This document shows positions 7,897 to 25,316 of a stretch of 26,826 bases of DNA, one piece after another. The DNA comes from a virus. The notes under the pieces were generated by a model. The model did not search any database. It was not told the origin of the DNA and saw nothing but the letters and a program-made list of their open reading frames with translations. The stretch is from the IMG/VR virus record IMGVR_UViG_3300037264_007326, positions 1 through 26,826 of that record, one strand, 5' to 3'. A program made the translations under genes and the position numbers. Each line of letters opens with the position of its first letter. Position 1 is the stretch's first letter.

Positions 7897-7904
7897 TATA
7901 TGAC

Positions 7905-7910
7905 TATAAT
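7905..7910 (+). promoter_or_regulatory. Candidate -10 box before the first virion-type gene
   Basis: A consensus TATAAT lies in the 90-base gap between the portal gene and the next gene. There is no matching -35 or TGn extension and the surroundings are AT-rich, so chance is a real alternative. No terminator hairpin is seen in this gap. Confidence 0.3.
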
Positions 7911-7986
7911 ACAACTAATATTATAAATAACTCATGTAAGATTTTAAAGGAAATAAAAATAATTTACAAAAGGCAGGTGACTTATT

Positions 7987-8436
7987 ATGCCAGTAACAAG
8001 CAAATGGTTTGGTAACGGACTTTTAGGGCAATATAGTGTAACAGCAGCAAGACGAGTTGATTGGGCAACAGATGCAATTACCGTTTCTCTTCACACGGTA
8101 ACATATGTTCCCAGCCAGGACGCAGATGATTTCTGGAATGACGCCACAAATGAAATTTCAGGAACAGGATATTCAACTCCAGGTTTGGTGCTTGGTTCAA
8201 AAACAACAGCATATGATTCAGGCACAAATGAAACAAGACTTGATGCCGCAGATGCAGCATGGACTACTGCTTCATTTACAGCAAGAATCGCCGTTGTATA
8301 TTCAAATACAGGCGGTGCATCAACAACAGACCCGGTTCTTACTTATGTGGACTTTGGTGGAGACGAAACAGTGTCTTCAGGAACATTCACAATTCAGTGG
8401 GACGCGACGGGCGTGGCTAAGATTACCGCCTCATGA
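7987..8436 (+). CDS. Small beta-rich virion-type protein
   Basis: A 149-residue protein made of short beta strands separated by Gly/Asp/Thr turns. It starts MPVTSKWFGNGLLGQYS and contains the VDWATDAITVSLHTVTYVPSQDADDFW block, then VSGTGYS-like and YVDFGGDETVSSG segments. Similar small proteins are widespread in actinobacteriophage structural regions, usually without a defined role, and I recognise that general pattern only. A good site (AGGTGA, seven bases before the ATG) supports the start. It directly follows the portal gene but is too small to be a normal major capsid protein. A head-decoration or tail accessory role is inferred. Confidence 0.7.
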   Translation: MPVTSKWFGNGLLGQYSVTAARRVDWATDAITVSLHTVTYVPSQDADDFWNDATNEISGTGYSTPGLVLGSKTTAYDSGTNETRLDAADAAWTTASFTARIAVVYSNTGGASTTDPVLTYVDFGGDETVSSGTFTIQWDATGVAKITAS

Positions 8437-8497: not shown

Positions 8498-9220
8498 ATG
8501 AAAAATTATGAGAAAGACTTCAACGGGCAATGGTGGTATGTTTATAAGAGTGGAAGAGACAAAGCTCTCGAAAGAATCTGCCTCTATTGCGGAAGTTTAT
8601 TTTATTGTCGCGCAGCAGAGAAAAGAGATTGTTGCACACAAAAATGCACTAGAGCAAGTGAACCACCCAAAGAAATGGCTATAGCTAAAGAACCAGAGCA
8701 AGTCAGAGAAAAGTATAATTATTCTAAAGATGAATTTGGTTGGTGGTGGTATATAGCCGGAGGAACTAAATGCAGATGCAAGGTAAAAAAATGCGAACAA
8801 TGCAATAAATATTATATAATTGCGCCCCAACATTTCAAAACTTCACGTTTTTGCACAAGACATTGTAGCTCCAAATCTCAACCTAAACAGGGAGAAAAGT
8901 CTCGCAGATGGAATGGTGGAAGGAGAAAAAATAATAGTGGTTATGTTGAAATTTGGATTTCCAAAGAAGAAAGACAAAAAAGAAACAGAAAAAGACAATA
9001 TATATTAGAGCATAGACTTGTAATGGAAAAAAAACTTGGAAGAAAATTACAGGAAAATGAATCCATACATCATATAAATGGCGTTAAAGATGATAATAGA
9101 CCAGAAAATCTTGAATTATGGGTTAAGCATTCTACACCAGGTATTAGAACCAAAGATGTGATAGAATGTATTTGTTGTCAAGGCAAGGGTTATATTTTGA
9201 AAGAGGATTCCATTGGTTGA
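8498..9220 (+). CDS. HNH endonuclease with duplicated zinc-ribbon modules
   Basis: A 240-residue, basic, probably homing-type nuclease. The C-terminal half has an HNH_3-like core: EHRLVMEKKLGRKL (about 171-184), SIHHINGVKDDNRPENLELW (189-208, catalytic His pair and Asn). The N-terminal half contains two copies of one module, each with a WWY motif followed by CxxC and a second Cys pair: residues 12-50 (C28, C31, C46, C50) and 82-123 (C99, C102, C119, C123). A last CICC lies near 225. It sits between virion-type genes, has its own promoter candidate and a poor ribosome site (AAGAG very close to the ATG), and looks like an inserted element. It overlaps the next gene by 8 bases. Confidence 0.88.
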   Translation: MKNYEKDFNGQWWYVYKSGRDKALERICLYCGSLFYCRAAEKRDCCTQKCTRASEPPKEMAIAKEPEQVREKYNYSKDEFGWWWYIAGGTKCRCKVKKCEQCNKYYIIAPQHFKTSRFCTRHCSSKSQPKQGEKSRRWNGGRRKNNSGYVEIWISKEERQKRNRKRQYILEHRLVMEKKLGRKLQENESIHHINGVKDDNRPENLELWVKHSTPGIRTKDVIECICCQGKGYILKEDSIG

Positions 9221-9647
9221 AATTATAAAATCAAATAATATTTTTTCAAAGGATGTTTTAATTGACGCCCCTCCTGCAATTTTTGGTTCAACCCCAAATG
9301 AAAGGCAACTAAAAAAGATAATCAAATCAATAATTCCTGGTGTTGAAATTGACGCCAAGGATGTTATTGATATGCAACAGGCAACGATTAGGGAATTAGA
9401 AAGTAATTTAGAAAAAACAAGAATTGTGGCAACAACAATTGCCAATTCCTGTCTTTGTTTATATAAAATGTTATTGGATGAGGGCTATACTGATGACGGG
9501 GAATCAGTTAGATTTTCGAAGGAATTGGTAGATAGAATGAAGGGTGCAGAGATATCTATAACCGAAGATGGTTTTGGAGATAGATATTTGCGCATAACTT
9601 CAAGACATGATCATCCAGTTTGGGAAGGAAGGCAAATAGATGAGTGA
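9213..9647 (+). CDS. Hypothetical protein, 144 aa, TTG start
   Basis: The TTG at 9213 has GAGG six bases upstream, inside the end of the HNH gene. The product is acidic and mixed helix/strand: an N-terminal segment with a DAPPAIFGSTPNERQLKKIIKSII stretch, a helical centre (IDMQQATIRELESNLEKTRIVATTIANS) that may form a short coiled coil, and a C-terminal part with strands (ISITEDGFGDRYLRITS). The stop overlaps the next gene by eight bases. I do not recognise the family. Its place in the virion-type operon suggests a structural or assembly accessory, but nothing in the sequence proves this. Confidence 0.6.
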   Translation: MVEIIKSNNIFSKDVLIDAPPAIFGSTPNERQLKKIIKSIIPGVEIDAKDVIDMQQATIRELESNLEKTRIVATTIANSCLCLYKMLLDEGYTDDGESVRFSKELVDRMKGAEISITEDGFGDRYLRITSRHDHPVWEGRQIDE

Positions 9648-10853: not shown

Positions 10854-11606
10854 GTGGCGCTCACATTTGGAGCCGCCACAACAGACCGGGTTGACATCGC
10901 CCTCGGCCTTGGAACTCCATCCGCGCTCTCGATCCTGATGTGGGTGTATCCGACGACCCGCACGAATGCTCGGCGTTGGTGGGCGCAATCGGGGACAGAA
11001 GGGGGTGTCTATTCACACAACATCTTGTGGAACTTCGTCGGCACCGGAATCGAGATCGAGGTTGTGCGCACAACCTCTTCCGCTATTGTCGTCACGTCTG
11101 ACACGTGGACGCTGAACAAGTGGTGGTGTCTCGTGGTGACGTACTCGGAGGCGGACGGAATCGACGCCTACCGGGGCGATCTCACCACCGAGCTTGCGCA
11201 GCTCACCTACTCGACGGACACGACCGGGGTTGGCACCACCAAGACGGCGGCCGAGGACAGACACCAAATCTCCAACATCGGCACCAATAACACGTTCCAG
11301 GGTCGGATCGCCCGCGCCGTCCGCTGGCGTCGCAGAATGACGCTCGCGGAGGCGATCGGCCAGCAATGGATCACCCGCCCCGACGCCGACACCGACTTCT
11401 TCTTCGAGCTTGGCTACGCGGGCACCGGCACACAGCCGAACCTCACGAGCCTGGGGAACGGCAAGAACGGGACTGTGACGGGGGCGACGGTGTCGGATCA
11501 TGCTCCTTTGCCAATGAAAATTATCCCAAGACGATCTTATTATAAGCCACCAACAGAAACAAGTGGTCTTCAATTACGTACTATTACTTCTCAATTGAGG
11601 TTCTAG
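10854..11606 (+). CDS. LamG/concanavalin A-like protein with GC-rich N-terminal module
   Basis: A 250-residue protein starting with GTG at 10854, with AGGA six bases upstream. Residues about 1-217 form a LamG-like jelly roll: LTFGAATTDRVDIALG, FSxxxW-type strand SILMWVYPTTRTNARRWWAQ, WWCLVVTYSE and QGRIARAVRWRRRMTLAEA. Such domains bind sugars or proteins on phage surfaces. The DNA of this part is very GC-rich (42 of 60 bases in the line from 11341). Near 11505 it changes abruptly to AT-rich DNA that codes for a basic tail (PLPMKIIPRRSYYKPP...) rich in Arg/Lys/Tyr. The foreign composition points to recent exchange with a high-GC phage, leaving the native tail in place. Confidence 0.8.
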   Translation: MALTFGAATTDRVDIALGLGTPSALSILMWVYPTTRTNARRWWAQSGTEGGVYSHNILWNFVGTGIEIEVVRTTSSAIVVTSDTWTLNKWWCLVVTYSEADGIDAYRGDLTTELAQLTYSTDTTGVGTTKTAAEDRHQISNIGTNNTFQGRIARAVRWRRRMTLAEAIGQQWITRPDADTDFFFELGYAGTGTQPNLTSLGNGKNGTVTGATVSDHAPLPMKIIPRRSYYKPPTETSGLQLRTITSQLRF

Positions 11607-11607
11607 G

Positions 11608-12369
11608 ATGCCGTTCCCCACTATTCCAACTGTTGCCGCTGGCCGTGTTCTTACGACGAACATCGACGGCACCGGCACCCGCACGTTCCCTGACCTGTCC
11701 GGGCTGACCAAGAACGAGGGCGACCTACTGATCGGGATCATCGTCGCCTACCAGTCGTCGGCCGGGGCGGGCGCACCGGGCGGCACCGTGTTCTCCGCCT
11801 GGGGTGCGTCGTTCACCGAGTTCTGCGACCAGATGACCGCCGACTCCTCCACGATGGCGATCGGGGCGGCGTACAAGTGGTCTACGGGGTCGGAGACGGG
11901 GACGTTCACGGTGACGCAGGCGGCGACGATCACGGGAGGCGCCTCTTTGATCCTGCTCTCGATTCCAGCCTCGGACGGCATAACAGCGCCGGAGGCTGGA
12001 ACCATAGCCGACGGCACTGGTGCCGCAGCCGACCCCGGCTCCTTCGACCCGGCAGGGTGGGGCGCGGAGGACACCCTGTGGATCTCCGTCAACTGCAACG
12101 GCATGATCAACGCGGGCGGGTCGTGGACGGCGACGGTCGCGACCGCGCCGACCAACTACACCGACAGGGTGGACACCAACAGGGCGGACGACAGCATCGT
12201 AGGCCGGGTCGAAGGGGCGGTCGCGTTCCGCCAGTTGAACGCCGCAGCCGAGGATGTCGGCGCGGGCAGCTCGGATGTGTCGAACGCACGCAACTCGGCT
12301 CTGCTGATCGCGGTACGCCCGCGTCCTATTATTCCAATAGTTGTTATTCCAAGGGGCTGGCAACAATAA
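11608..12369 (+). CDS. Virion-type protein, GC-rich body with AT-rich ends
   Basis: A 253-residue protein starting MPFPTIPTVAAGRVLTTN. The ribosome site GAGG lies in the AT-rich end of the upstream gene, seven bases before the ATG. The body has strands and Gly/Ala/Thr loops (LSGLTKNEGDLLIGIIVAYQ, AAYKWSTGSETGTFTVTQAA, EDTLWISVNCNGMI, ARNSALLIAVRPRP). I recognise this order from small actinobacteriophage structural proteins of unknown role. From about 11640 to 12325 the DNA is GC-rich. The last 14 codons (PIIPIVVIPRGWQQ) are AT-rich and echo the IIPR of the preceding protein's tail. This is a second module swap beside the first. Confidence 0.75.
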   Translation: MPFPTIPTVAAGRVLTTNIDGTGTRTFPDLSGLTKNEGDLLIGIIVAYQSSAGAGAPGGTVFSAWGASFTEFCDQMTADSSTMAIGAAYKWSTGSETGTFTVTQAATITGGASLILLSIPASDGITAPEAGTIADGTGAAADPGSFDPAGWGAEDTLWISVNCNGMINAGGSWTATVATAPTNYTDRVDTNRADDSIVGRVEGAVAFRQLNAAAEDVGAGSSDVSNARNSALLIAVRPRPIIPIVVIPRGWQQ

Positions 12370-14790
12370 ATGAGTAATAATTATAGATCTCCTATTGTTC
12401 AGCCAAAATTAGAGAAACGAGATATCGCTCCTCAAGTTATTTTTGCTTTAACTCTTGCTGCTCCTGTCTCTGTAACAATAATTTCTCCTGCTGCAAGCGC
12501 AACATCCTCTGTAGCTTCACAAATTCCAGAAATTAAAATTTCAGCAGTTGCTACATCAACCGCTTCTGTTTCTATAACAGCAACAGATATTACAATATTC
12601 CCTCTGTCATCAAGTTCAACTGCTTCGGTTGTTTCTCCTATACCTCTTGTAACAGCAATAGCAACAGTATCAATAGCTACAGCATCGGTTGTTGCTTCAA
12701 TTCCTGCAATAACAGTTGCTTCAAATTCAATCGCAACTGCTTCTATTGTTTCTCCCGTCCCGCAAGTTACCGTTACTTCTGTAGCCAATGCATCAGCATC
12801 AATTTCAAGTCCAGTTCCAGAAGTTAAGGTTACAGGAATTGCAATTGCAACAGCGAGCATTTCTGCCCCTGTTATTTCAACTGGAAATAGTGTAACAATA
12901 ATTTCTCCTGCTACAAACGCAACAGCCAGCATATCATCTCCTGTTCCAACTATAACTATTTCTACAAATGCAACCTCTACGTCTTCTGTAACTTCACCAA
13001 TTCCTGTAATAACAATAACAAGTGTTTCAAGTTCTATAGCTTCTATTGTAAGTCCTACTCCAAAAATAACTGTAACTTCTGTTGCTAATTCAACAGCTTC
13101 AGTATCGTCACCTGTTCCTGAAGTCAAGGTTTCATCAATTGCTTTGGCCACAGCTAGTGTTGGACAAGTAAATGTAGACAATACTGTTTCTCCGCCAGCT
13201 ATATCAACAGCCTCAATAACAAGTCCTATTCCCGTTATTACAATTGTTGCAGGGGCGGGTTCCAATGCTTCTGTAGTTTCTCCAACACCAAATATTACAG
13301 TAACTTCTGTAGCTATTACTACGGCGTCAGCAAATAGTCCTGTAATTTCTGTATCTAATACAGAAGTATCTCCGGCAGCAATTGCAACAGCTTCAATTTC
13401 TTCTCCTGTGCCAACAATTACAGTAACAACGGGTGCATCTGCGACAGGAACATCTAGTTCAACGCCAGCAATAAATGTTCCATTAACTGCTGCTCTTGCT
13501 ACAGCAAGCGTTTCTGCGCCAATAATAAGCACTTCTGGAAATATAACAATAATTGTTCCGTCTACGAATGCAACAGCAAGTGTTTCAACTGTTGTTCCAA
13601 AAATAACTATTACTGCGATTGGAACATCAACAGCTTCAATTTCTTCGCCAATTCTAGAAATTTCTGTTTCAACTGTAGCAGGCGCCACAGCCTCTTCTAA
13701 CTCTCCAATACCTTCAATCACAATAACAAGTATCGCCTCTGGAACAGCCTCTTCTGCTTCAACTCCAACAATAACTGTTCAGGCTCCAGTTGCTATAGCC
13801 AATGCATCTGTAGACACAACTGGCGCATCAATAGATGTCACAATTGGTCCATTAAGCGCAACAGCAACTTCATCTATTGTAAGTTCAATTCCGGAAGTAT
13901 TGGTGACAGCAGTTGCTACATCTACGGCATCAGGGATATCACCAATACCAACAATTACTATTGTTTCAATACCAGCTTCAGTAAACGCCTCTGTAACATC
14001 TCCTGCTCCTGGCCTTACCTTTGTGGCAAATGCTATAGCTACTGCCTCTATTGTAACCCCACTACCAAAGATAACAATTACTTCTGATTCAGCAATAGCT
14101 GTGGCCAATGTTGTTGCTCCAATAATCTCAATATCAACAAATATAACAATACTGGCTCCAGTAGCCATATCTACAGGAAGTATAAGTGCGCCAATTATAA
14201 AGATTATTGTTGCCACTGTATCGGAAGCTATAGCGCAAACCAATAATCCAATACCACTTATTACAATAACAACAGGGGCTATATCAACTGCCTCAACATC
14301 TTCAACTCCAGTAATAACAATAATTTCTGATGCCTCAATAGCAACAGCAAATATTTCTGCTTCAACACCCAAAATAACAGTTACATTTGCTCCCGCAATA
14401 GCTACAGCAAGTGTTATTGCTCCAGTTATTCCAACACAATCTAGTGTAACAATATTGGCACCAACAGCCAGTTCTATTACAATTAACGGTATTCCAATAC
14501 CAACAATTTCTGTTTCTTCTGTATCATTTTCCACAGCGGCAGGAATTTCACCAATACCTTCATTAACAATTAATCCTAATTCTGCACTAGCCAATGCAAT
14601 TGCCTTTGGAACAATTCCTTCTAAAAAAGGTTATGCTAATTTCTCTATCTTAAGTAGAGGTAGTTCTGCTAATATATATAGCATAAAGCCAGTTGATATT
14701 GAAATATCTCCAAGAAGTTCGCCAAATATTGTCACAAGAAAAACAACTTCTAAGATATATGCGCCAACCTCTGACCATAGCGAGACATAA
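12370..14790 (+). CDS. 806-aa Ser/Thr/Ala-rich repeat protein, putative mucin-like fibre
   Basis: After an N-terminal region of about 30 residues (MSNNYRSPIVQPKLEKRD...), some 700 residues are built from a degenerate unit of about 19 residues with the pattern SxxSPxPxITVTSxAxATA. Ser and Thr make up about a third (21 of 60 in one stretch counted). Ala, Val, Ile and Pro fill most of the rest, aromatic residues are almost absent and Cys is not seen. The C-terminus (about 750-806) is different: GYANFSILSRGSS... with Tyr, Arg and Lys. A long beta-strand-and-turn fibre is likely. It lies among virion-type genes and ends on the start of the next. The high Ser/Thr content makes it a candidate O-glycan acceptor for the glycosyltransferases downstream. 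Function is inferred. Confidence 0.8.
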   Translation: MSNNYRSPIVQPKLEKRDIAPQVIFALTLAAPVSVTIISPAASATSSVASQIPEIKISAVATSTASVSITATDITIFPLSSSSTASVVSPIPLVTAIATVSIATASVVASIPAITVASNSIATASIVSPVPQVTVTSVANASASISSPVPEVKVTGIAIATASISAPVISTGNSVTIISPATNATASISSPVPTITISTNATSTSSVTSPIPVITITSVSSSIASIVSPTPKITVTSVANSTASVSSPVPEVKVSSIALATASVGQVNVDNTVSPPAISTASITSPIPVITIVAGAGSNASVVSPTPNITVTSVAITTASANSPVISVSNTEVSPAAIATASISSPVPTITVTTGASATGTSSSTPAINVPLTAALATASVSAPIISTSGNITIIVPSTNATASVSTVVPKITITAIGTSTASISSPILEISVSTVAGATASSNSPIPSITITSIASGTASSASTPTITVQAPVAIANASVDTTGASIDVTIGPLSATATSSIVSSIPEVLVTAVATSTASGISPIPTITIVSIPASVNASVTSPAPGLTFVANAIATASIVTPLPKITITSDSAIAVANVVAPIISISTNITILAPVAISTGSISAPIIKIIVATVSEAIAQTNNPIPLITITTGAISTASTSSTPVITIISDASIATANISASTPKITVTFAPAIATASVIAPVIPTQSSVTILAPTASSITINGIPIPTISVSSVSFSTAAGISPIPSLTINPNSALANAIAFGTIPSKKGYANFSILSRGSSANIYSIKPVDIEISPRSSPNIVTRKTTSKIYAPTSDHSET
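12460..14600 (+). repeat. Degenerate coding repeats of about 57 bases
   Basis: The protein repeat has a period of about 19 residues with some longer units. At DNA level the copies have diverged through synonymous change, so few exact repeats remain. The clearest pair is 12471-12503 and 12891-12923, offset by exactly 420 bases with two mismatches in 33. Endpoints of the repeat region are approximate. Confidence 0.75.
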
Positions 14791-15086
14791 TGACACAAAC
14801 ATTTTATCAAGATGAACAAATAATTTTTAATATTACTTTTTATAGTGATGCGGCTAAAACTTTACCTGTTGATCCCACTACAGTAACTCTTGAGGTTCAA
14901 AAACCAAACTTATCAGTTGTTAATCCAACTGTAAGTCCAGATGGCGCACGACCAGCAAATACAGGTAAATATACAGCAAGCTATGTAGTGGTTGATTATG
15001 GTTTGCATGATTGGCGCTGGATAACAGTCAGTCCAATTATTGTAAGACAAGGAAATATAAAAGTTGAAAGGAAATCAACAGCTTAG
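14790..15086 (+). CDS. Small Ig-like phage protein, 98 aa
   Basis: A compact beta-sandwich: an N-terminal QDEQIIFNITFYSDAAKT, DPTTVTLEVQKPN in the middle, the DGARPANTGKYTASYVV strand-turn with the GKY(T)A signature, and GLHDWRWITVSPI near the end. This order (strand, DPTTVTL, GxYxA, W-x-W) is typical of short Ig-like domains in actinobacteriophage structural operons. The ATG overlaps the last base of the preceding stop. It is the last gene before the third swapped module. An adaptor or decoration role is inferred. Confidence 0.7.
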   Translation: MTQTFYQDEQIIFNITFYSDAAKTLPVDPTTVTLEVQKPNLSVVNPTVSPDGARPANTGKYTASYVVVDYGLHDWRWITVSPIIVRQGNIKVERKSTA

Positions 15087-15106
15087 TTTCTTAGAGGAGA
15101 ATTATT

Positions 15107-15148
15107 TTGGCACTACTTACCAAAGTCATCTTCATCGACAAAACCTAA
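15107..15148 (+). pseudogene. 13-codon remnant or leader with strong Shine-Dalgarno site
   Basis: GAGGAG precedes a TTG at 15107 by about six bases, the best ribosome site in this neighbourhood. The frame gives MALLTKVIFIDKT and then stops (TAA 15146-15148). That N-terminus looks like the start of a virion-type protein, so it may be the stump of a gene replaced by the GC-rich module that starts at 15163. A short leader peptide coupling translation to the next gene is the alternative. Confidence 0.4.
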
Positions 15149-15162
15149 CCTTGGAAATATAG

Positions 15163-15993
15163 ATGGCTGTCGCTCACGCTCACGCATCCGAATCTCATAC
15201 TGGCGCAATTGGCTCGATTTCGGAAGCGTCCTTCAACTGGCAGCATGATGATCCGGCTGCAACGCCCGCCCCCAAGGGTGTTCTTATTTTTGTCGTAAAT
15301 CTCGTCTCGAATACTGATATTGTTTCCTCGGTTACCTACAACAGTGTCTCAGTTCCAAAGGTGACGGGGGCAGAGGCCGGTGATACGACGACAGAGCCAG
15401 GTCACGTCACTACATACTTCCTTGGATCAGGCGTATCAACCACAGATCCGGCGACTGTTGTCGTCAACCGCACAAATAACACAGATGAATTGTGGGCGGT
15501 TGCCGTTACTGTTACTGCTGCCGCAGGTAAAGATACAGATATCCACACGGCTGGTATCGTGTTATTGCAGGATGACGGAACTCTGGCAGAGCAGAGTGTG
15601 ACAGACGGCTCGCCTGGTTCTAACTCGGTCCGCTACGCCGCCGCTTTCTCCGGTCTTCCCAGCTTTCCCCCTACTGGCGCCAGTTCAACTGCCCTGTTTG
15701 ATTTCGACACAGGTCAACAGACAGCGGCGGTGGTTAGAGAGACAACTGCCGGTCAGGGCGCACGCAATGTGGGTTTCGCCTCGGGTACGTCTGACGACCG
15801 CGCCGTTGTACATCTAGCAATAAAAGAAATTTCTCAATCTATAACAATTGTTTGTCCCGCTGTAAATTCAACTGCAAACATTGCCACAGTTATACCCAAA
15901 ATTGATATAATAAGTATTTCTACTGCAATTGCTACAATTAATTCTGCTGTTGTCGAAATAAGACCATTTGCAAGAATAGCCATTAGTTTATAA
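15163..15993 (+). CDS. Virion-type protein with swapped N-terminal module and repeat-like tail
   Basis: A 276-residue protein. Residues about 1-218 form a beta-rich domain (SFNWQHDDPAATPAPKGVLIFVVNL, VTTYFLGSGVSTTDPATVVV, YAAAFSGLPSFPPTGASST, FASGTSDDRAVVHLAIKE) encoded by GC-rich DNA: 39 of 60 bases in the line from 15601. Near 15815 the DNA becomes AT-rich, and the tail SITIVCPAVNSTANIAT...KIDIISIS matches the unit of the 806-residue repeat protein upstream. Recombination through the repeat is a simple explanation. No ribosome site directly precedes the ATG, so translation may depend on the short frame at 15107. A virion surface role is inferred. Confidence 0.7.
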   Translation: MAVAHAHASESHTGAIGSISEASFNWQHDDPAATPAPKGVLIFVVNLVSNTDIVSSVTYNSVSVPKVTGAEAGDTTTEPGHVTTYFLGSGVSTTDPATVVVNRTNNTDELWAVAVTVTAAAGKDTDIHTAGIVLLQDDGTLAEQSVTDGSPGSNSVRYAAAFSGLPSFPPTGASSTALFDFDTGQQTAAVVRETTAGQGARNVGFASGTSDDRAVVHLAIKEISQSITIVCPAVNSTANIATVIPKIDIISISTAIATINSAVVEIRPFARIAISL

Positions 15994-16019
15994 ATTTATA
16001 TTTTAAAAGGGATGTAAAA

Positions 16020-18314
16020 TTGGAAGATAAAAGAGTTGCATGTTGTATTATAACAGGGGATGATTGGCGAGAAGAAGAAGTAAAGAAGCTACTAGAGTCT
16101 CTTGAACCTCATGTTCATGGAATTTTTGTCAATTATAATGGAAAAAACAAAAAATTAAATTGGCAAAAATGGACTACGTTGCCAATAATATATAAAAAGT
16201 TTAAATGGGAAGATGATTTTTCTCTTGCCAGAAACCAATCTTTTTCTCTTGTACCAGAAAATGAATATTCTTATCGTCTTTGGATAGACACAGATGACAT
16301 TTTGGTTGCTCATAATGGAGCCTTACAAGAGATGTTTGATTCTCTTGATGAATATACAGAGGGAATATTTATTAGGTATGCATATGCAGTAGAACCAGAC
16401 ACAGGGATGGTTGTTGTTGAACAGTGGCGCGAAAGATTTTTATCAACAAAGGTTGATTGGAATTGGGTGTTTCCCATACATGAAGTTTGTAGGTCGCAAG
16501 GTGTTCAATTTGCTAAAAGGGATCATTGTTTTATTCAACATCAAAGAACAAGCGGAGAAGATAGAGGGGCAAGAGAAAGAAATAGAAGAATAATTTCAAA
16601 ATCTCTCAGAGAAAATCCAAACGAACCAAGATTTCACTTTTATTTTGCCGGGGAAACCTTAGCTGAAGCAGATGCGGAACAAGAACCAGAAAAAAAATTG
16701 GGATTAATTGAAGCCTCTCTTCTTGAATATAAAAGATACAGAGAAATGCAGAATGATCTTTCTGACGATGTTTATTTGGCAACATCTAGAATGGCTGAAT
16801 TAAATAGAATGAAAAATGATCATGCCGCCGCCTTGGAATGCGACCTTGAATGTATTGCAATTTATCCAGATTGGCCAGATGGATATGTTGGGGCGGCTAA
16901 ATCCTGCATGGAATTGCAGGATTGGCGCAGGATGAAGTCCTTTGCTGATATGGCTACAAGATGCGGAAGTCCTCAAACGGCGGCAAGCATTGAGCCAATG
17001 ATGTCTGGTTTTACTCCTTTATTTTTAAGGGCTTTAGCTAATGAAGAATTAGGGGATATAGATCAGGCGCTTGAAGACTATAAGGAAGCCCAAAAAATAT
17101 GGCAGCCAGCCAACGGAGATTTGCAAAAAAAGATTGAATTTCTTGAAGGACTTGAAGAAAATAAACCCAATGAAGAACGATGGACCCTAAGAAAGAAATT
17201 AAGGGGAACAAAATCAGAAAAAAGCATTTGTTTCTTTACGCAGCCTATACCGGATATTTGGCATCCAGAGACTTTAAAGGAAGGAGGAGCGGGAGGCGCC
17301 GAAACATGTATAATGAAATTGGCTCCAATGTTTGAAGCAGACGGCTGGAGAGTTGTTGTTTTTGGAACTCCAGGGGCACACAGAGGCTTACATGAAGGCG
17401 TGGAATACTGGAACTCCGATGAATTTTTACCCTCTGAAAAGTTTAAGGTGTTTGTTTCAAGTAGATCCTGCTTTCCTTTCGAAGCCAATATTAAGGCAGA
17501 TGCATCATTTTTGTGGTGCCATGATGTTAATGTTGGAGAACAAAACAGAGAATTATTTATGAAACCAGATGCGGTATTGGGGTTAACCAATTGGCACGCT
17601 CAACATTTATCTAAACTATATAAGATTCCAAAAAATAAATTAAGAGTTATACCAAACGGTATAAATTTGGAAAGATTCCCTATAGAAAAATGGAATAATG
17701 AGGAGAAACAAAGATTAATATATTCATCCTCGCCAGATAGAGGTTTAGATACTATTTTATCATTGTGGCCAATAATAAAACAAAGATATCCAGAAATTGA
17801 AATTCATGTTTTTTACGGATGGAATATAATAGATAAAATAATTGAAATTTCTAGGAGTCGCGGCGCTCATAATACTCATTTAGAACAGTTTAAAAAGAGA
17901 TGCCTATTACAAGTCGAGGCTCTTGGTGGAGAAGATGCAGGAATTTTTATGCGCGGAAGAGTTAATCAAGACATATTGGCCGAAGAGATGATGAATTCCT
18001 TAATTTGGGCATTCCCTACGATGTTTATGGAAACTTTTTGCATTACAAGCATTGAAATTCAGGCGGCTGGAGTTGTTCCCGTGACATCTAATTTGGCGGC
18101 TCTGACGGAGACAATACATCCTGACTATCATAAGGTGGAGGGGTGGCCAAATAATGCGTCATATCAGAGAGAATGGCTGTCTCTTTTGGCTTTTGCCCTT
18201 GAAAATAAGGATTATAGGGAGAAAATTAGACCAAAGGCAAGAGAGCTTGCAGAACAATTCACTTGGGAAAAAAGTTATTCTAAGTGGAATGATTTAATAA
18301 AGGAATTTATATAA
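16020..18314 (+). CDS. Two-domain glycosyltransferase: GT2-like, helical repeats, GT4-like
   Basis: A 764-residue fusion. Residues about 5-200 are a GT-A (GT2-like) domain with LWIDTDDIL near 90 as the metal and nucleotide-sugar site. About 200-370 are helical, TPR-like repeats (AALECDLECIAIYPDWPDGYVGAAKS; LRALANEELGDIDQALEDY). From about 400 a GT-B (GT4-like) domain follows: EGGAGGAET near 420 (phosphate loop), VIPNGINLERFP near 545, SSSPDRGLDTILSLWP, and the ETFCITSIE E-x7-E motif near 670. The start is TTG 16020 with AAGGGATG six bases upstream. Two activities suggest building a disaccharide on a protein or glycan. It lies just downstream of the Ser/Thr-rich repeat protein, its possible substrate. 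Enzyme class is secure, target inferred. Confidence 0.9.
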   Translation: MEDKRVACCIITGDDWREEEVKKLLESLEPHVHGIFVNYNGKNKKLNWQKWTTLPIIYKKFKWEDDFSLARNQSFSLVPENEYSYRLWIDTDDILVAHNGALQEMFDSLDEYTEGIFIRYAYAVEPDTGMVVVEQWRERFLSTKVDWNWVFPIHEVCRSQGVQFAKRDHCFIQHQRTSGEDRGARERNRRIISKSLRENPNEPRFHFYFAGETLAEADAEQEPEKKLGLIEASLLEYKRYREMQNDLSDDVYLATSRMAELNRMKNDHAAALECDLECIAIYPDWPDGYVGAAKSCMELQDWRRMKSFADMATRCGSPQTAASIEPMMSGFTPLFLRALANEELGDIDQALEDYKEAQKIWQPANGDLQKKIEFLEGLEENKPNEERWTLRKKLRGTKSEKSICFFTQPIPDIWHPETLKEGGAGGAETCIMKLAPMFEADGWRVVVFGTPGAHRGLHEGVEYWNSDEFLPSEKFKVFVSSRSCFPFEANIKADASFLWCHDVNVGEQNRELFMKPDAVLGLTNWHAQHLSKLYKIPKNKLRVIPNGINLERFPIEKWNNEEKQRLIYSSSPDRGLDTILSLWPIIKQRYPEIEIHVFYGWNIIDKIIEISRSRGAHNTHLEQFKKRCLLQVEALGGEDAGIFMRGRVNQDILAEEMMNSLIWAFPTMFMETFCITSIEIQAAGVVPVTSNLAALTETIHPDYHKVEGWPNNASYQREWLSLLAFALENKDYREKIRPKARELAEQFTWEKSYSKWNDLIKEFI

Positions 18315-18323
18315 TTAAGTTTG

Positions 18324-18351
18324 TTGTCATTAATATACAATTTGCTATAAT
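18324..18351 (+). promoter_or_regulatory. Strong promoter for the lysis region
   Basis: TTGTCA (18324-18329, five of six matches to the -35 consensus), a 16-base spacer, and TATAAT (18346-18351) extended by TG at 18343-18344. This is the best promoter in the window. It lies in the 57-base gap between the glycosyltransferase and the 86-residue gene. No terminator hairpin precedes it. Confidence 0.75.
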
Positions 18352-18371
18352 AAAATTAAAAGGAGAGTAAT

Positions 18372-18632
18372 ATGTCGGAAAGTCAAGCTTTAGTAAAACC
18401 ATATTGGGTTCAATTTCACACATATGATGAAGAAAATGGAACTTCAAAGGCATATCCATTTTTGGTTGTTCACGAAGGAACATCAGAAAGCGGAGGCAAC
18501 CAAAAGTGGGGATGGGTTTTTGCAAACGATACCGAGCCAAATGTAGCCGGTTTATCAGATGGAGAAAACTGGAGAGGAGATATTGGGCAAGGCGGTCCCG
18601 GAAAGAATGTTTCTTGGTCTGTTTTTGAGTAA
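18372..18632 (+). CDS. Small hypothetical protein, 86 aa, first gene of lysis operon
   Basis: Starts MSESQALVKPYWVQFHTYDEENG, with AGGAG six bases before the ATG and the strong promoter just upstream. Rich in Trp and Gly (WGWVFANDTEPN, GENWRGDIGQGGPGKNVSW), polar, with no membrane segment or signal peptide. I do not recognise the family. It is followed four bases later by the endolysin, so it may be a lysis accessory or a highly expressed virion component. Nothing in it decides between these. Confidence 0.65.
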   Translation: MSESQALVKPYWVQFHTYDEENGTSKAYPFLVVHEGTSESGGNQKWGWVFANDTEPNVAGLSDGENWRGDIGQGGPGKNVSWSVFE

Positions 18633-18636
18633 ATAA

Positions 18637-19317
18637 ATGGGAAAATTAATTAGAAATTTAAGGGAAGGTAGTTCTCCAGGCAAGGATATTTATGCGTCTA
18701 AAAGGATTGTGTTTAAATATCTTGGAGATGAATATTCATGGAAAAAATTAACAAGTAATCTTCCTTTTATTAGAAATAAATTTATTTCTTCATTCACAAA
18801 AAGTGTTAATAAGGCAAGAATTAAATCCAGTTTGCCGCAAAACGGGATTATGAATAATACTTTGTTGGAAAAGATGAGAGCGGCGGGAGCAGTTGATTCA
18901 TATTCAGATAAATTGCTGCAAGATTATGCCAAAGAACAACTAACAAAAATAGTGGAGCCATATCAGGGATTTTCTTCTCTTCATAAATCTCTATGGGAAG
19001 TATACTCCATTGGACGCAACATGGGGTTAAAAGATGGACCTGGCTTAGCCAGTGGAACATACAATCCTGGTTCTAGATTGCCAAGCGGAAAAAAATCAGA
19101 TCACGCCCATCTTCCCTCTTATGCGTTTGATCTAGACATTGTTCAATACACAGGTTGGAATAATCTTAACGCTAGAGCTTATTTTAATAAAATTATTAAT
19201 CGTCCAGAAATAAATTATGCCATATTAGGAAATAAAATATGGAGTAAAAGTAACGGTCTTAATAGTTATAATTATGGCGGACATGAAAATCATATTCATA
19301 TAAGTGCAGTTCACTAA
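18637..19317 (+). CDS. M15-type metallopeptidase, probable endolysin
   Basis: A 226-residue protein that probably cuts peptidoglycan peptides at the end of infection. Zinc-site residues fit the M15 (D-Ala-D-Ala/L-Ala-D-Glu peptidase) pattern: SDHAHLPSYAFDLD with His158 and Asp165 (H-x6-D), then GGHENHIHIS with His219 and His221 (HxH). Residues 1-70 are basic and could be a wall-binding or linking region. No signal peptide is seen, so it needs a holin for export, and the next gene encodes a holin-like protein. The ribosome site is weak. The peptidase fold is fairly secure, the exact bond cut is not. Confidence 0.82.
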   Translation: MGKLIRNLREGSSPGKDIYASKRIVFKYLGDEYSWKKLTSNLPFIRNKFISSFTKSVNKARIKSSLPQNGIMNNTLLEKMRAAGAVDSYSDKLLQDYAKEQLTKIVEPYQGFSSLHKSLWEVYSIGRNMGLKDGPGLASGTYNPGSRLPSGKKSDHAHLPSYAFDLDIVQYTGWNNLNARAYFNKIINRPEINYAILGNKIWSKSNGLNSYNYGGHENHIHISAVH

Positions 19318-19331
19318 GAAAGGAGGAAAAA

Positions 19332-19757
19332 ATGAAGAAATTACTATATGAAGCAGGAAGAGAAGCTCTGAAGGCATTTGTCATTACATTTCTAACATTT
19401 GTAACAGGTCTTTTGGCTGCAACAAACTTAGATGAGTTTCAGGCAATTGGTGTTGCTGGCTTGGTGGCATCAGGAGTGGCGGCATTGAAGGCGCTTAAGG
19501 TCTTTGCGCCCAAACTTTCCTTTGCCTCGCTTGTTAGACAGCCATTCGCCTCTTGGCTTGATGCCTTTACAATAGCGGGATTGTCATCTTTCTTGGTTTT
19601 GATAGATGGCCTGTCAAATGCACCAAATTATGAAACCACTAAGGCTGTTTTTGTTGCCGCAGTAGTTGGTGGATTACAAGCTGGTTTTAGAGCAGTTGAA
19701 GGATTGTTCACTAAGAGCGAAACACCATTGCCTTCTTTTGGAACAGATAACTCATAA
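19332..19757 (+). CDS. Holin-like membrane protein
   Basis: A 141-residue protein with about four hydrophobic segments: near 14-34 (ALKAFVITFLTFVTGLLAA), 40-58 (IGVAGLVASGVAALKALKV), 78-92 (FTIAGLSSFLVLIDGL) and 104-122 (AVFVAAVVGGLQAGFRAV). The ends are charged or polar. A near-ideal ribosome site (AAAGGAGG, six bases before the ATG) predicts high expression. It lies 14 bases after the endolysin gene, where holins usually occur. Holins are too diverse to prove by motif, so the call rests on topology and place. Confidence 0.7.
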   Translation: MKKLLYEAGREALKAFVITFLTFVTGLLAATNLDEFQAIGVAGLVASGVAALKALKVFAPKLSFASLVRQPFASWLDAFTIAGLSSFLVLIDGLSNAPNYETTKAVFVAAVVGGLQAGFRAVEGLFTKSETPLPSFGTDNS

Positions 19758-19759
19758 TA

Positions 19760-19966
19760 ATGACCACCAAGGAATCGGAAAATGTTGTGAAGGAATTGTC
19801 TCAACTTCAAGAACATAAGCTGTATAATTTTGTGCGGCTTCTTGGAGATGAATATTCCATTGATGTTTTGGAAGGTCTAATAGAAAATCAAATAGATTAT
19901 CATGAATTAGAAAATCTTTTAGAGAAAGGATGTTCAAAGGATTTAGCTATTGAAATTTTGTCTTAA
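19760..19966 (+). CDS. Small helical hypothetical protein, 68 aa
   Basis: Starts two bases after the holin stop, without a clear ribosome site, so coupled translation is likely. Strongly helical and acidic: VVKELSQLQEHKLYNFVRLLG, then LEGLIENQIDYHELENLLEKG, ending with AIEILS. The regular leucine spacing suggests a small helical bundle, of the sort seen in regulatory or accessory phage proteins. The family is not recognised. It is the last gene before the hairpin block. Confidence 0.55.
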   Translation: MTTKESENVVKELSQLQEHKLYNFVRLLGDEYSIDVLEGLIENQIDYHELENLLEKGCSKDLAIEILS

Positions 19967-19969
19967 AAA

Positions 19970-20065
19970 CTTGCTGTTTACAGCAAGAGTGGTAGTAGCA
20001 GAAGGTTTTCCGTCCCTTCCTTCTGCTCCCACACGGGAAAGGGTAGAACCGCAACTACCCTTTCC
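19970..20065 (+). ncRNA. Three consecutive stem-loops, possible structured RNA
   Basis: Three perfect stems stand in 96 bases: 19970-19976 with 19981-19987 (7 pairs, loop TTTA); 19997-20005 with 20019-20027 (9 pairs), extended by GTGG 19989-19992 with CCAC 20029-20032; and 20036-20046 with 20055-20065 (11 pairs, loop AACCGCAA). The block lies between a stop codon and a promoter. It could be a stable small RNA, a 3' protective element for the lysis message, or a double terminator. It is not a tRNA. Confidence 0.5.
20036..20065 (+). terminator. Intrinsic terminator after the lysis operon
   Basis: The third stem (GGAAAGGGTAG / CTACCCTTTCC, 11 pairs, 8-base loop) is followed directly by ATTTTAT, a short T-run. 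It is placed after the last lysis-region gene and before a new promoter, as expected for an intrinsic terminator. Confidence 0.6.
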
Positions 20066-20071
20066 ATTTTA

Positions 20072-20080
20072 TGCTATACT
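20072..20080 (+). promoter_or_regulatory. Extended -10 promoter for the nucleotide and glycan operon
   Basis: TGCTATACT, one base off the TGCTATAAT seen at three other places. It lies seven bases after the terminator stem and 30 bases before the TTG start at 20110. A -35 is not obvious. Confidence 0.5.
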
Positions 20081-20109
20081 AAAAATTAAACAAAACAGAG
20101 AGGACGGAA

Positions 20110-20655
20110 TTGAGTATACAAGAGATGGGAATTAAATCAGGTAACATGTTTACTTACTCCGGCAGGTTTTTTAATCCTTTGGAGCCAGACACAGATTTAA
20201 TAGATATATATGATATAGCAAACGCCTTGTCTCATATTGGGAGGTATGGAGGGCATACAAGAAGCTTTCTAAGTGTGGCTGAGCATTCGATAAGAGTTGT
20301 TGATCAAACAAGTAGAGAGAATGGCAAATGGGCTTTGCTTCATGACGCAAGTGAAGCCTATTTGGGCGACATACCTGCTCCTCTTAAGTATCATGAAGAT
20401 TTCTCTTTTTATAGAGAGGCAGAGCGTAATTTAATGAAGGCTATTTGTGATAAGTTTGATTTGGATTATGAGGAGCCAGAGGAAGTTAAATATTTCGATA
20501 TGGTTGTTAGGGCAACAGAAATGAGAGACTTAACTAATATACCAATAGAATTTTATAATGGTTATACACCTCTCACTGTAAGAGTGCGTTGTTTTTCTCC
20601 AGAGGAGGCGTATAATATATTTATTGAATATGCAAGGATGTTGAGGATTTTATAA
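20110..20655 (+). CDS. HD-domain phosphohydrolase
   Basis: A 181-residue metal-dependent phosphohydrolase of the YfbR-like HD family, which acts on nucleotides. The metal ligands fit the pattern GGHTRSFLSVAEHS (His49, His59), ALLHDASEAYLGDIP (His78-Asp79) and a later Asp in RATEMRDL. The N-terminal SGRFFNPLEPDTDLIDIYDIANALS is typical of a branch common in phages and plasmids. The start is TTG 20110 with GAGG six bases upstream. The TAATG at 20653-20657 couples it to the next gene. It probably adjusts nucleotide pools. The exact substrate is unknown, and the DatZ role in Z-DNA synthesis cannot be claimed from this alone. Confidence 0.87.
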   Translation: MSIQEMGIKSGNMFTYSGRFFNPLEPDTDLIDIYDIANALSHIGRYGGHTRSFLSVAEHSIRVVDQTSRENGKWALLHDASEAYLGDIPAPLKYHEDFSFYREAERNLMKAICDKFDLDYEEPEEVKYFDMVVRATEMRDLTNIPIEFYNGYTPLTVRVRCFSPEEAYNIFIEYARMLRIL

Positions 20656-20819
20656 TGGATTATATTAGCGATAGAGATTTTGGAGACGAAACAAACAATG
20701 AAGAAGAAGATGAGCCTGATATTGGCGTAAGGGAGCCAATATTGCCTCTTAAACCTTTATTGAGTGATGCAGCAAAGATTTCCTTGGAAAACATAGAGGA
20801 ATTAATAAACGCAGTATAA
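20655..20819 (+). CDS. Small acidic hypothetical protein, 54 aa
   Basis: A short gene exactly filling the gap between the HD hydrolase and the next glycosyltransferase, with TAATG overlaps at both ends. The peptide is very acidic (DRDFGDETNNEEEDEPDIG), followed by a Pro/Leu segment (REPILPLKPLLSD) and a short helix (AKISLENIEELINAV). No family is recognised. The perfect fit between neighbours and the coupling signals support it as a real gene. Confidence 0.6.
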   Translation: MDYISDRDFGDETNNEEEDEPDIGVREPILPLKPLLSDAAKISLENIEELINAV

Positions 20820-21625
20820 TGAAGGTTGCAATTTTTACTCCAACCGCACATTTTGGAAATTTAGATGTGTTGGAGGCATCCTTAACTAGACAAACATATA
20901 AAAATTTTGTTTGGATAGTTGCTGATGAATTAAAAGGAAAAAGAAAATATATTTGGTATAAAATAATAAGTAGGGTTGATTTTCCAATTTTATTTATACA
21001 ACCAACAAAAGAAAAAAATAAAAAAAGAAATTTAGCCAAGGCTTATAATGTGGCGGCGGATTACGCCTCTCTTGTCGAAAATTCTGATTTATTTATATCC
21101 TTACAGGATTTTATATGGTTGCCAGAGAATGGTATTGAGAGATTTATTGCGCTTTATGAATGGAAGCCAACTGATTTATATACAGGGGTAACACATATTT
21201 CCAATGATCCTTTCCCCAAGAATGTTAAAGATATAAATGGTCTTTATACAATATTTGATTCCCCTTTTGTAGAAAAACCTAAAAGAATAGGGTGGGAGGA
21301 TGTTAGAGTTAAGAAAATTTACTCCGGTTACCCTGAAGACTCAGTAGTGAAAATAGATCCGCATCATTGGGAGGCGAATTGGGCTGGCGTTCCAGTTAGT
21401 CTTCTGAAAAAAGGTTTAAGATGGAATGAAGACTATGATTATGGAATTGCATATGAAAATTGTGACTTTGCACAAAGGGCAACAAGGGAATATGGAGCAA
21501 ATGTTCTTTTAGATACAGGAAATATTGCTATAAGTCTTCCTCATAAAAAATATTTTAAGGGGGAAGAAGAAGAAATAATAGAATTTAGCAATAGAGAGCG
21601 TTATGAAAAGGATTGGAATCTTTAA
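20819..21625 (+). CDS. Glycosyltransferase-like protein, GT-A fold
   Basis: A 268-residue protein starting MKVAIFTPTAHFGNLDVLEASL, then TYKNFVWIVADE, the usual first strands of GT2 enzymes. FISLQDFIWLPENGIERF (about 98-115) takes the place of the DxD loop as LQDF, a degenerate form. WNEDYDYGIAYENCDFAQRA (about 201-220) matches the later ED-type acceptor loop of GT2 enzymes. The start overlaps the small acidic gene's stop. It is the second glycosyltransferase-like gene of the window and is coupled to a MazG-like gene. The missing canonical DxD leaves activity uncertain. Confidence 0.75.
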   Translation: MKVAIFTPTAHFGNLDVLEASLTRQTYKNFVWIVADELKGKRKYIWYKIISRVDFPILFIQPTKEKNKKRNLAKAYNVAADYASLVENSDLFISLQDFIWLPENGIERFIALYEWKPTDLYTGVTHISNDPFPKNVKDINGLYTIFDSPFVEKPKRIGWEDVRVKKIYSGYPEDSVVKIDPHHWEANWAGVPVSLLKKGLRWNEDYDYGIAYENCDFAQRATREYGANVLLDTGNIAISLPHKKYFKGEEEEIIEFSNRERYEKDWNL

Positions 21626-21897
21626 TGGGAGTTTTGGATATATATAGAATGATACAGGAAGAAAGAGAGCGTCAACTATATAAATATGAACATGGCGAAC
21701 TCGCTTGGATCTGTTCCAGCCCATATAATGAGGCAACTCATGAAATGAAATTGGGTCTTCTTGGTGAAGAGTTTGGTGAGGTTTGTAGAGCTATAAATGA
21801 TGGAGAAGAACCAGAAAGACTTATAGAGGAACTAATTCAATTGGCTGCGGTTGCTGTTGGATTTGTGGAGAGCATAGAAAATGAAAATTACAAATAA
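21625..21897 (+). CDS. MazG-like nucleotide pyrophosphohydrolase
   Basis: A 90-residue all-helical protein. LGEEFGEVCRAIND (ExxE metal motif) and LIEELIQLAAVAVGFVE (second acidic helix, E-x-x-x-A pattern) fit the MazG-like fold, which hydrolyses nucleoside triphosphates to monophosphates. The ATG at 21625 overlaps the upstream stop (TAATG) and has GGA seven bases upstream. A TTG at 21613 is less likely because AAGGA touches it. Lies in the same operon as the HD hydrolase, suggesting pool clean-up. Confidence 0.8.
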   Translation: MGVLDIYRMIQEERERQLYKYEHGELAWICSSPYNEATHEMKLGLLGEEFGEVCRAINDGEEPERLIEELIQLAAVAVGFVESIENENYK

Positions 21898-22087
21898 TTA
21901 TGAAGCCTCTATAGAAATTCAAATTCCAAAAGAAATTAGAGTTTTGGTGTTTAGTTCATATTCACCTTCGGACGACTCTTGTTCTGCGGCGACGAATCTT
22001 ATCATAAAGTGTAATTCTAATTCTTCTGCCAAAGAAGCACAATATATACTTGAAAAATTTATTAAAAATATTGAAAAATATTTATAA
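21881..22087 (+). CDS. Small hypothetical protein, 68 aa
   Basis: The ATG lies inside the end of the MazG-like gene, overlapping by 17 bases, with GGAG about ten bases upstream. The product has strands (YEASIEIQIPKEIRVLVFSS), an Asp/Ser/Asn-rich loop with two cysteines, and a C-terminal helix (KEAQYILEKFIKNIEKYL). I do not recognise the family. Its codon use matches its neighbours. Its reality rests on this and on the overlap. Confidence 0.5.
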   Translation: MKITNNYEASIEIQIPKEIRVLVFSSYSPSDDSCSAATNLIIKCNSNSSAKEAQYILEKFIKNIEKYL

Positions 22088-22096
22088 AAATAAATA

Positions 22097-22333
22097 ATGA
22101 AAATAATTTTTGGAAATAATAAATTTGAAATTGAGGAGCACGCCAAGGAAGTTATTTCTTCCATTAAGAATGAAGAAATGAGGTATCCGAGAAGATCCAT
22201 ACCAATGGGAATACCTTTTCACGCAGTAAGATATCCTTTTGTTTGCGATGACTGTGGGGAGTCATACTGGTCCAACAATGAGTATGGACAGCATGTTAAA
22301 TGTGATAAAAAGGGAAATAGTTTAGGATTTTAA
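22097..22333 (+). CDS. Small zinc-finger protein, 78 aa
   Basis: Contains one C2HC finger: CDDCGESYWSNNEYGQHVKC (about residues 50-69), with a Cys pair, a 12-residue spacer, His and Cys. The N-terminal part is helical (EIEEHAKEVISSIKNEEMRY), followed by a Pro/Arg segment. Such short fingers in phages bind DNA, RNA or host proteins. No ribosome site is visible. It starts nine bases after the previous stop. Function is unknown. Confidence 0.6.
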   Translation: MKIIFGNNKFEIEEHAKEVISSIKNEEMRYPRRSIPMGIPFHAVRYPFVCDDCGESYWSNNEYGQHVKCDKKGNSLGF

Positions 22334-22340
22334 TTAAAAT

Positions 22341-23075
22341 ATGAAATTGGCAATTATAACAAATGCGTTGCAAGAGGAAAAATTAATTTTTGGTTGTGTG
22401 GCGCAATTTAAACATTATGAACTTGATCATCTTGTTTTGATTCCATATAAATCCTGGAATGGAGATTATGAATCACAAAATGACAAAACAGGAGAGATAG
22501 CCCTTGATGCTGGCGCACTAGTCGCCTATGGAGATTGGAAAACAGAGGCGGAACAATTAAATTATGGTCTTTGGTATTTTTCTGATTATGATTGGATAAT
22601 AATTTGTGATGCCGACGAAAGATATACAAGAGATGGATTTAGCGTGTTATATAGAGAGTTATCATTGCTTTATGGATTTGATTCCTTAAGAACCAACAAG
22701 TGGCATGTTTATTGGAAGACGATGGATTATGAATTGATGCCCCCGCAAACAGACTTTCCGCTTATTGCAGTAAGACCTTTTGTTAAATTCCTTAATAAAA
22801 GATCCTGTAATTGCGTTAATACGGCATGGACAAGCGTTCCAATGTATCATGCCAGTTATGTCAGGTCAAATGAGGAAATGTTAAGAAAGATTTCAAGTTT
22901 TAGTCACTCTTCGGAAATCAATATAAACGAATGGTATAATAACGTATGGTTGAAATGGACTCCAGATATGGAAAATTTGCATCCTGTGCAAAGTGAACAG
23001 TTTAAAAGTGCTGTTTTTTCTCCAGCGCCAGACGAGATAAAGAAAAAATTGCTAAATCCAAATTTTTCCGGCTGA
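22341..23075 (+). CDS. Glycosyltransferase-like protein with DAD motif
   Basis: A 244-residue protein: MKLAIITNALQEEKLIFGCVAQFKHY, ELDHLVLIPYKSWNGD, then AEQLNYGLWYFSDYDWIIICDADERY (about 72-97). The DADE at the end of a hydrophobic strand is the expected position of the GT-A metal site, and the NYGL..F segment before it fits the family's helix. The rest (SLRTNKWHVYWKTMDYELMP) resembles no subfamily I can name. The start has no close ribosome site. A GT-A sugar-transfer role is likely, donor and acceptor unknown. Confidence 0.72.
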   Translation: MKLAIITNALQEEKLIFGCVAQFKHYELDHLVLIPYKSWNGDYESQNDKTGEIALDAGALVAYGDWKTEAEQLNYGLWYFSDYDWIIICDADERYTRDGFSVLYRELSLLYGFDSLRTNKWHVYWKTMDYELMPPQTDFPLIAVRPFVKFLNKRSCNCVNTAWTSVPMYHASYVRSNEEMLRKISSFSHSSEININEWYNNVWLKWTPDMENLHPVQSEQFKSAVFSPAPDEIKKKLLNPNFSG

Positions 23076-23091
23076 ATAAAAATAAAACATC

Positions 23092-23103
23092 TTATCATGA
23101 TAA
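23092..23103. promoter_or_regulatory. Perfect 12-base palindrome TTATCATGATAA
   Basis: A perfect palindrome in the 45-base gap before the methyltransferase, ending 17 bases before its ATG and just before the AAGGA site. It might be a protein-binding site or control access to the ribosome site. Chance cannot be excluded in AT-rich DNA. Confidence 0.3.
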
Positions 23104-23120
23104 TATAAAGGAATAAATTT

Positions 23121-23702: not shown

Positions 23703-23708
23703 TTTAAT

Positions 23709-24374: not shown

Positions 24375-24529
24375 GATATTCTGTTGAAATAACCATAAGA
24401 ATGAGTCCAATTGAAACGGATTCAAAGGAAAGGGCAACTGAAATTGCCATAAAGCAAATCAATAATGGCCTCAACGATAGAAGCCAGATAATAGAATATG
24501 TCGCCTATGAACTAGAGGATATAGATTAA
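24371..24529 (+). CDS. Small hypothetical protein, 52 aa
   Basis: Starts at the ATGA overlap with the CmcI stop, with GGAG six bases before the ATG, and ends on the ATG of the next gene (TAATG). The sequence starts MRYSVEITIRMSPIETDSKERATEIAIKQINNG and ends acidic (YELEDID), with strand-helix-strand character. Not recognised. The exact fit and coupling on both sides support it. Confidence 0.6.
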   Translation: MRYSVEITIRMSPIETDSKERATEIAIKQINNGLNDRSQIIEYVAYELEDID

Positions 24530-25083: not shown

Positions 25084-25316
25084 GCTTCTTTAAAACCAGG
25101 TAATTGCTTTCCTTCCTCTCTAAGTCTTTTTATAAATGTTTTTGCTGTATAGAAATCCTTATTAATTCTTTTCATGTCTCTTCCAAGTGTTCTTCCTGTG
25201 GCGACTGAGGCGCCAAAATATTCACTGGCCTTATCTCGTTGGCCATTTAATAGGGCTATGGCATGTCTATAGACATAATTTCTATATAAACTTCTAACTT
25301 CTTCCTCGGAACGCAT
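25080..25316 (-). CDS. Small helical hypothetical protein, 78 aa
   Basis: On the minus strand, convergent with the GT2 gene. The product begins MRSEEEVRSLYRNYVYRHAIALLNGQ and is helical and basic (DFYTAKTFIKRLREEGKQLPG). The ATG at 25316 has AAAGG about nine bases upstream. A TTG nine bases earlier touches that site and is less likely. The gene overlaps the HNH gene upstream by 23 bases. Not recognised. Confidence 0.6.
   Translation of the reverse strand: MRSEEEVRSLYRNYVYRHAIALLNGQRDKASEYFGASVATGRTLGRDMKRINKDFYTAKTFIKRLREEGKQLPGFKEA

Follow-up and report, generated by a model that had tools for sequence, protein, structure and literature searches.

Our analysis suggests, with a probability that we put at roughly 60%, that the stretch described here is the late surface-protein region of a tailed phage and carries a phage-encoded cassette for virion glycosylation. 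The window, by which we mean the whole 26,826-bp record of an uncultured virus, has the gene content of a tailed phage: a DnaB-type helicase and a dCMP deaminase (3328-3855) are encoded on the minus strand, and the plus strand then carries the genes of the terminase, the portal and small proteins of surface type, together with lysis-type genes. This soil-type phage has an enzyme set that probably attaches and methylates sugars on proteins of its own particle. Within the plus-strand run, two presumed surface proteins of 250 and 253 residues (10854-12369) precede the gene of an 806-residue Ser/Thr-rich repeat protein (12370-14790). The first of the two is LamG/ConA-like (PF13385, 3.7e-5, under the cut-off), and the second is kept in relatives (62% identity to 5823-6590 of contig L003, E 2.5e-94). 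The stop of the repeat gene is overlapped by a 98-residue protein (14790-15086, plus strand), after which come a 276-residue protein (15163-15993, plus strand) and, 26 bp further on, a 764-residue GT2-TPR-GT4 fusion (16020-18314, plus strand) with a TTG start, predicted to be a protein glycosyltransferase (GT) with two catalytic domains. Our comparisons were all made by sequence, on a fragment of an uncultured phage and with small counts.

The fusion lies on the same strand as the repeat gene and starts 1,230 bp after its stop, as the first-pass annotation had noted, and the domain layout proposed there was borne out too. Pfam recovers the GT4 and TPR parts (PF13439, 7e-10; PF00534, 2.6e-8; TPR_1, 3e-4), and the GT2 half, in which the Pfam family PF00535 was not matched, is recognised by phrog_13126 (6.9e-22) and by comparison of a profile with the PDB. 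The solved structures nearest to the fusion-family profile were GmaR (1.1e-14), the Listeria flagellin O-GlcNAc transferase, and the SunS family (5e-12 and 8e-11) of peptide S-glycosyltransferases, followed by the TPR repeats of eukaryotic OGT. GmaR glycosylates flagellin with GlcNAc, recognition of that protein being the role proposed for its TPR (PMC9638930), and FlmG, a TPR plus GT-B enzyme, is a flagellin O-glycosyltransferase (PMC7591256). The fusion shows the arrangement of a GT2-TPR protein glycosyltransferase, in which a GT2 domain with DxD and IHE motifs is followed by TPRs, as in GmaR and SunS; because its GT2 half is nearest to these two and is succeeded by TPRs, its acceptor is, judging by homology, probably a protein. 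Unlike either of them it has an added GT4 domain, and we saw no sign of the antirepressor domain of GmaR. The match to SunS in NCBIfam (3.4e-7) is far under the cut-off, and since it reaches 29.4 bits against the 350 required for TIGR04195, the fusion is not a SunS and was rejected as a SunS equivalog. The DxDD and IHE motifs of GT2 and the GGxGGxE, SSPDRGL and first Glu of GT4 are retained down to 26-28% identity, so that both halves look active. Glycosylation of virions is known in other phages; the GT2-TPR-GT4 enzyme design is not, and a pattern scan of bacterial and archaeal genomes retrieved no relatives of the fusion. An AlphaFold2 model of the fusion built from five sequences had a pLDDT of 46, and only its TPR helices were usable.

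The fusion heads a cassette, since three further GTs and two methyltransferases lie 3' of it between 20819 and 25083, all on the plus strand. The first is a predicted glycosyltransferase of 268 residues (GT268, 20819-21625), with 29% identity to 22180-23109 of contig L015 (E 2e-28); as it has no Pfam match, its assignment rests on the annotation of the homologue (gtA) and on context. It is followed by a weakly GT2-like glycosyltransferase of 244 residues (22341-23075), for which PF00535 gave 0.062 by hmmscan, under the cut-off, and 6.7e-4 in a one-genome search, its counterpart in contig L005 giving 0.0039. Then come a class I methyltransferase of 193 residues (23121-23702; PF13489, 5.8e-6, just under the cut-off; phrog_22502, 1.6e-5) and a 221-residue member of the rhamnosyl O-methyltransferase/CmcI family (23709-24374; PF04989, 4e-54, 183.9 bits against a cut-off of 23.2). 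The last is a GT2 glycosyltransferase of 184 residues (GT184, 24529-25083; PF00535, 5.4e-5, over the cut-off), which also matches the galactosyl transferase family phrog_29879 (1e-4). A cluster of GT genes with methyltransferases is therefore encoded by a tailed phage here, and it is syntenic in two close relatives, L003 and L005, where GT268, GT2 and methyltransferase genes also stand behind the fusion. Inside the glycan cassette of L005 there is in addition a cytidylyltransferase (17954-18481), related to glycerol-3-phosphate/heptose enzymes, whose product could be an activated donor, either of a sugar or of a polyol.

Regarding the 806-residue protein, the first-pass annotation was right that about one third of it is Ser/Thr (19.2% and 14.6%, in sum 34%) and that its repeats hold few aromatic or charged residues (4 aromatic or His and 21 charged in a 710-residue core). 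Between a short N-terminus and a basic C-terminus, residues 30 to 740 approximately are made of strand-turn-strand units of about 19 residues, and these repeats are not a product of chance: the identity between residues 19 positions apart is 0.265, whereas none of 300 shuffles rose above 0.19. The DNA of the gene has no significant tandem array, and the repeats are for this reason old or fast-diverging. No match to the protein was obtained in Pfam, PHROG or NCBIfam, by tblastn among 50,697 phage records or by a pattern search of viral contigs. The description of the protein as mucin-like did not hold. Its core does not fit a mucin-like domain, in which a Pro/Thr/Ser tract poor in hydrophobic residues would be extended and lack an ordered fold: about 29% of the core consists of Ile, Val and Leu, the longest stretch free of VILMFYW has 15 residues, and AlphaFold2 predicts an ordered beta repeat. 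The model, of medium confidence, covers residues 126-300 as a monomer, with the other repeat segments of the protein as the alignment; it has a pTM of 0.68 and a pLDDT of about 70-85 across the first 140 residues, and in each 19-residue unit it shows a strand, a two-residue turn, a strand and an SPxP-type loop. Foldseek searches of this model against PDB and BFVD gave nothing at E of 0.001 or below (best BFVD hit 0.047), and accordingly no fold family is claimed. The protein is thus predicted to be an ordered beta-repeat fibre shaft, and it is probably located in the virion as part of the host-binding apparatus. The same repeat recurs in the last 60 or so residues of the 276-residue neighbour (BLASTP, 44% over 52 residues, E 9e-7), which the first-pass annotation had missed together with the downstream GTs and methyltransferases.

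In each of the four close relatives (L003, L004, L005 and L007) the portal gene is likewise followed by surface proteins, the repeat protein and the fusion, except that the short contig of L004 does not reach the portal, and the order of the cassette can be seen in the two contigs of sufficient length, L003 and L005. The four share the TTG start of the fusion as well. The link between the fusion and a repetitive surface-type protein, anticipated from the window, therefore extends to 4/4 of them. The protein in this slot follows the same general plan, with a sequence unrelated or barely related to that of the window (best E 0.2-0.3, no detectable shared sequence). In the relatives it is made of acidic 18-residue repeats with a common C-terminal domain, with inserted globular domains in the proteins of L005 and L007, and it has no match in phages. 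In L003, too, the large repeat protein (6591-8300) and the small protein before the fusion (8889-9518) share a repeat type (E 0.003). The repeat type differs between phages, yet is the same within the pair of the window and within that of L003, as if repeats were being homogenised genome by genome.

More distant phages carry the enzymes in another setting. In the Manatee Spring podoviruses MW202524, MW202718 and MW202743, the fusion is annotated as beta4glucosyltransferase and lies two genes behind the capsid gene. It has the same three domains over 96% of its length, GT268 next to it and methyltransferases nearby; it differs in its 25-28% identity, in belonging to an unrelated phage and in having an unrelated neighbouring repeat protein. 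The run of MW202718 comprises the fusion, GT268, another GT, a Ser/Thr-rich repeat protein of 598 residues, methyltransferases and a GT, with the capsid gene before it and later structural genes after it. Relatives of GT268 occur in only 3 of the 50,697 phage records, namely these podoviruses, in every case directly behind a fusion, and fusion and GT268 thus travel together between very different phages. In another record, L044 (MW202497), the GT2-TPR and GT4 parts are separate genes (3472-5175 and 7201-7791), and the ORF that divides them is labelled groEL.

Virion proteins of the mycobacteriophages Che8, Corndog and Myrna have been reported to be glycosylated, by cassettes described by Freeman et al. 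(2023), and later articles citing that work name capsid and tail tube as the acceptors (PMC12363180, PMC11600133, PMC12619734; cassettes also in PMC11256854). The cassette of the window fits, by analogy, phage-encoded virion glycosylation of this type. In Che8, too, the phage encodes several GTs in a run together with a methyltransferase, where gp108 matches a GT and a methyltransferase and gp109 and gp110 are GTs, and GT184 is faintly like gp109 (26% over 62 residues, E 0.005 in a database of six proteins). By profile, no homologue of the fusion or of GT268 was detected among gp108-110 (E 0.08 or worse). A further difference is that the acceptors there are capsid and tail-tube proteins, and the GTs of the window adjoin a repeat fibre. 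In serine-rich repeat adhesins, Ser-rich repeats are glycosylated by GtfA/GtfB encoded alongside. The window resembles these systems in having Ser-rich repeats and an adjoining enzyme that contains GT4, and departs from them in that it belongs to a phage, its repeats are rich in Ile/Val and its enzyme begins with GT2-TPR; no LPXTG anchor was seen when the 806-residue sequence was read by eye.

We propose that the TPRs of the GT2-TPR half would bind a phage surface protein, that GT2, acting in the cytoplasm, would attach the first sugar to Ser/Thr, by homology with GmaR and SunS, and that the fused GT4 domain would add a second. Chain extension may then fall to the GTs encoded at 20819, 22341 and 24529, and capping by O-methylation to the methyltransferases at 23121 and 23709. 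Genes, homologies, synteny, catalytic motifs and the separability of fibre and cassette were read from the sequence, and the beta repeat is predicted by the model; virion location, acceptor, sugar transfer, the sugars themselves and the order of action are what we infer. The idea of phage-encoded glycosylation put forward in the first-pass annotation is sustained by a GT2 plus TPR of GmaR/SunS type, for which a protein is the likely acceptor, and by two catalytic domains with conserved motifs; its choice of acceptor stands less firmly. The 806- and 276-residue proteins are the nearest candidates, with capsid, tail tube and smaller surface proteins as their rivals, and the 806-residue protein is the leading single one, although we hold its being an acceptor to be somewhat less than an even chance. 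A fuller version, that a two-step GmaR/SunS-like GT2-TPR plus GT4 enzyme coats an interchangeable repetitive fibre shaft with a methylated glycan, is more speculative; equally tentative is its corollary that the enzyme stays constant while the shafts are exchanged among neutral beta, acidic beta or Thr-containing collagen-like repeats.

Among the alternatives, the one that survives best is that the cassette glycosylates other virion proteins (capsid, tail tube or small surface proteins) and the repeat protein merely adjoins it, which we consider a real though minority possibility. It agrees with the acceptors named for Che8, Corndog and Myrna, and the Ser/Thr richness of the 806-residue protein has a structural reading too, with polar residues on the faces of the ordered 19-residue beta units and Ile/Val inside. 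The co-occurrence of repeat protein and fusion suggested as a check gave a divided answer: both are present in 4/4 close relatives, and they separate in two members of a wider set of relatives gathered through the terminase. G003, the record of L034, whose terminase is 43% identical, encodes in the same slot (17351-25555, minus strand) a repeat protein of 2,734 residues with 33% Ser/Thr, a period of 20/61/81 and 'RTTSDSWTISDA' units, and its 91.9 kb gave no detectable fusion, GT268, PF00534 or PF00535. In G004 the fusion and GT268 keep their order, but collagen-like, Thr-containing GXY proteins occupy the slot, and none of its ORFs of at least 250 residues reaches 25% Ser/Thr. These two genomes rule out that repeat fibre and fusion strictly co-occur. 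In the 11 records compared, Ser plus Thr reaches at least 25% in 10 of the 263 ORFs of at least 250 residues; such proteins are uncommon, yet not tied to the enzyme. The C-termini of the Che8 MCP and tail protein contain 15% and 7% Ser/Thr, and because they are not Ser/Thr-rich and because of the exceptions of G003 and G004, Ser/Thr content is a weak guide to the acceptor. Against this alternative, the repeat gene shares an operon-like run with the fusion in the window and in 4/4 close relatives, and capsid and tail-tube genes are distant in the 102.8-kb relative G001 (13.9-17.1 kb against 64.7-67.0 kb for the fusion); furthermore, the collagen-like proteins of G004 are themselves partly Thr-rich repeats.

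It is rather improbable that the targets of the enzymes are glycans or proteins of the host surface, modified for instance as a block to superinfection, instead of the virion. Such a role has been proposed for phage GTs (PMC10202952), GT4 domains are commonly used in polysaccharide synthesis, and the kinship of the L005 cytidylyltransferase points in the same direction; however, the GT2-TPR half resembles enzymes with protein acceptors, in the close relatives the fusion is part of the late run from portal to lysis genes and in the podovirus it follows the capsid gene, and no membrane-spanning lipid-linked GT was noticed on reading the window. Glucosylation of hypermodified phage DNA, as in T4, is very unlikely. 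The dCMP deaminase and a DNA cytosine methyltransferase predicted by eye (2-664) would suit it, but a thymidylate-synthase-type hydroxymethylase (PF00303) is absent from G001 and from the record of L003 in a search whose control matched 9 genomes, G001 has instead a ThyX-like ORF (by eye), and the fusion resembles protein GTs; Tet/JBP also gave no match, in a search whose control was silent as well. Finally, that the repeat ORF is no protein gene, given that minus-strand ORFs of 429 (12432-13721) and 271 residues (13779-14594) lie opposite it, can be practically dismissed, as the sense ORF starts immediately 3' of the upstream stop, shares its repeat with the 276-residue protein, has repeat proteins in its slot in five related records and is modelled by AlphaFold2 as a regular structure, and the antisense ORFs are a by-product of the composition of the repeat gene.

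If the fusion does glycosylate a virion fibre, long fibres would join capsid and tail tube as targets of phage virion glycosylation, and one enzyme that combines two catalytic domains with a TPR for acceptor binding would be at hand for testing in a heterologous host. If the enzyme stays constant while shafts are swapped, one could also test whether glycosylation adapts the fibres of phages to soil conditions or to the defences of the host. G003, as a counter-example, is of no less use, since it indicates that composition alone is no ground for calling Ser/Thr-rich phage fibres glycoproteins.

Some further features of the window deserve mention. The two genes at 10854-12369 have 59% and 66% GC, in a phage that is otherwise mostly near 33-45%, and this sharp compositional island probably consists of surface-protein genes acquired recently. 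An HNH endonuclease gene (8498-9220, phrog_20891) adjoins the structural genes, and a second HNH-like protein was recognised by eye on the minus strand (25294-25857). Also on the minus strand, 25787-26191 encodes a Transglycosylase-like domain (PF06737, 1.8e-5, just under the cut-off) of a type common in actinobacteria, which hints at an actinobacterial host.
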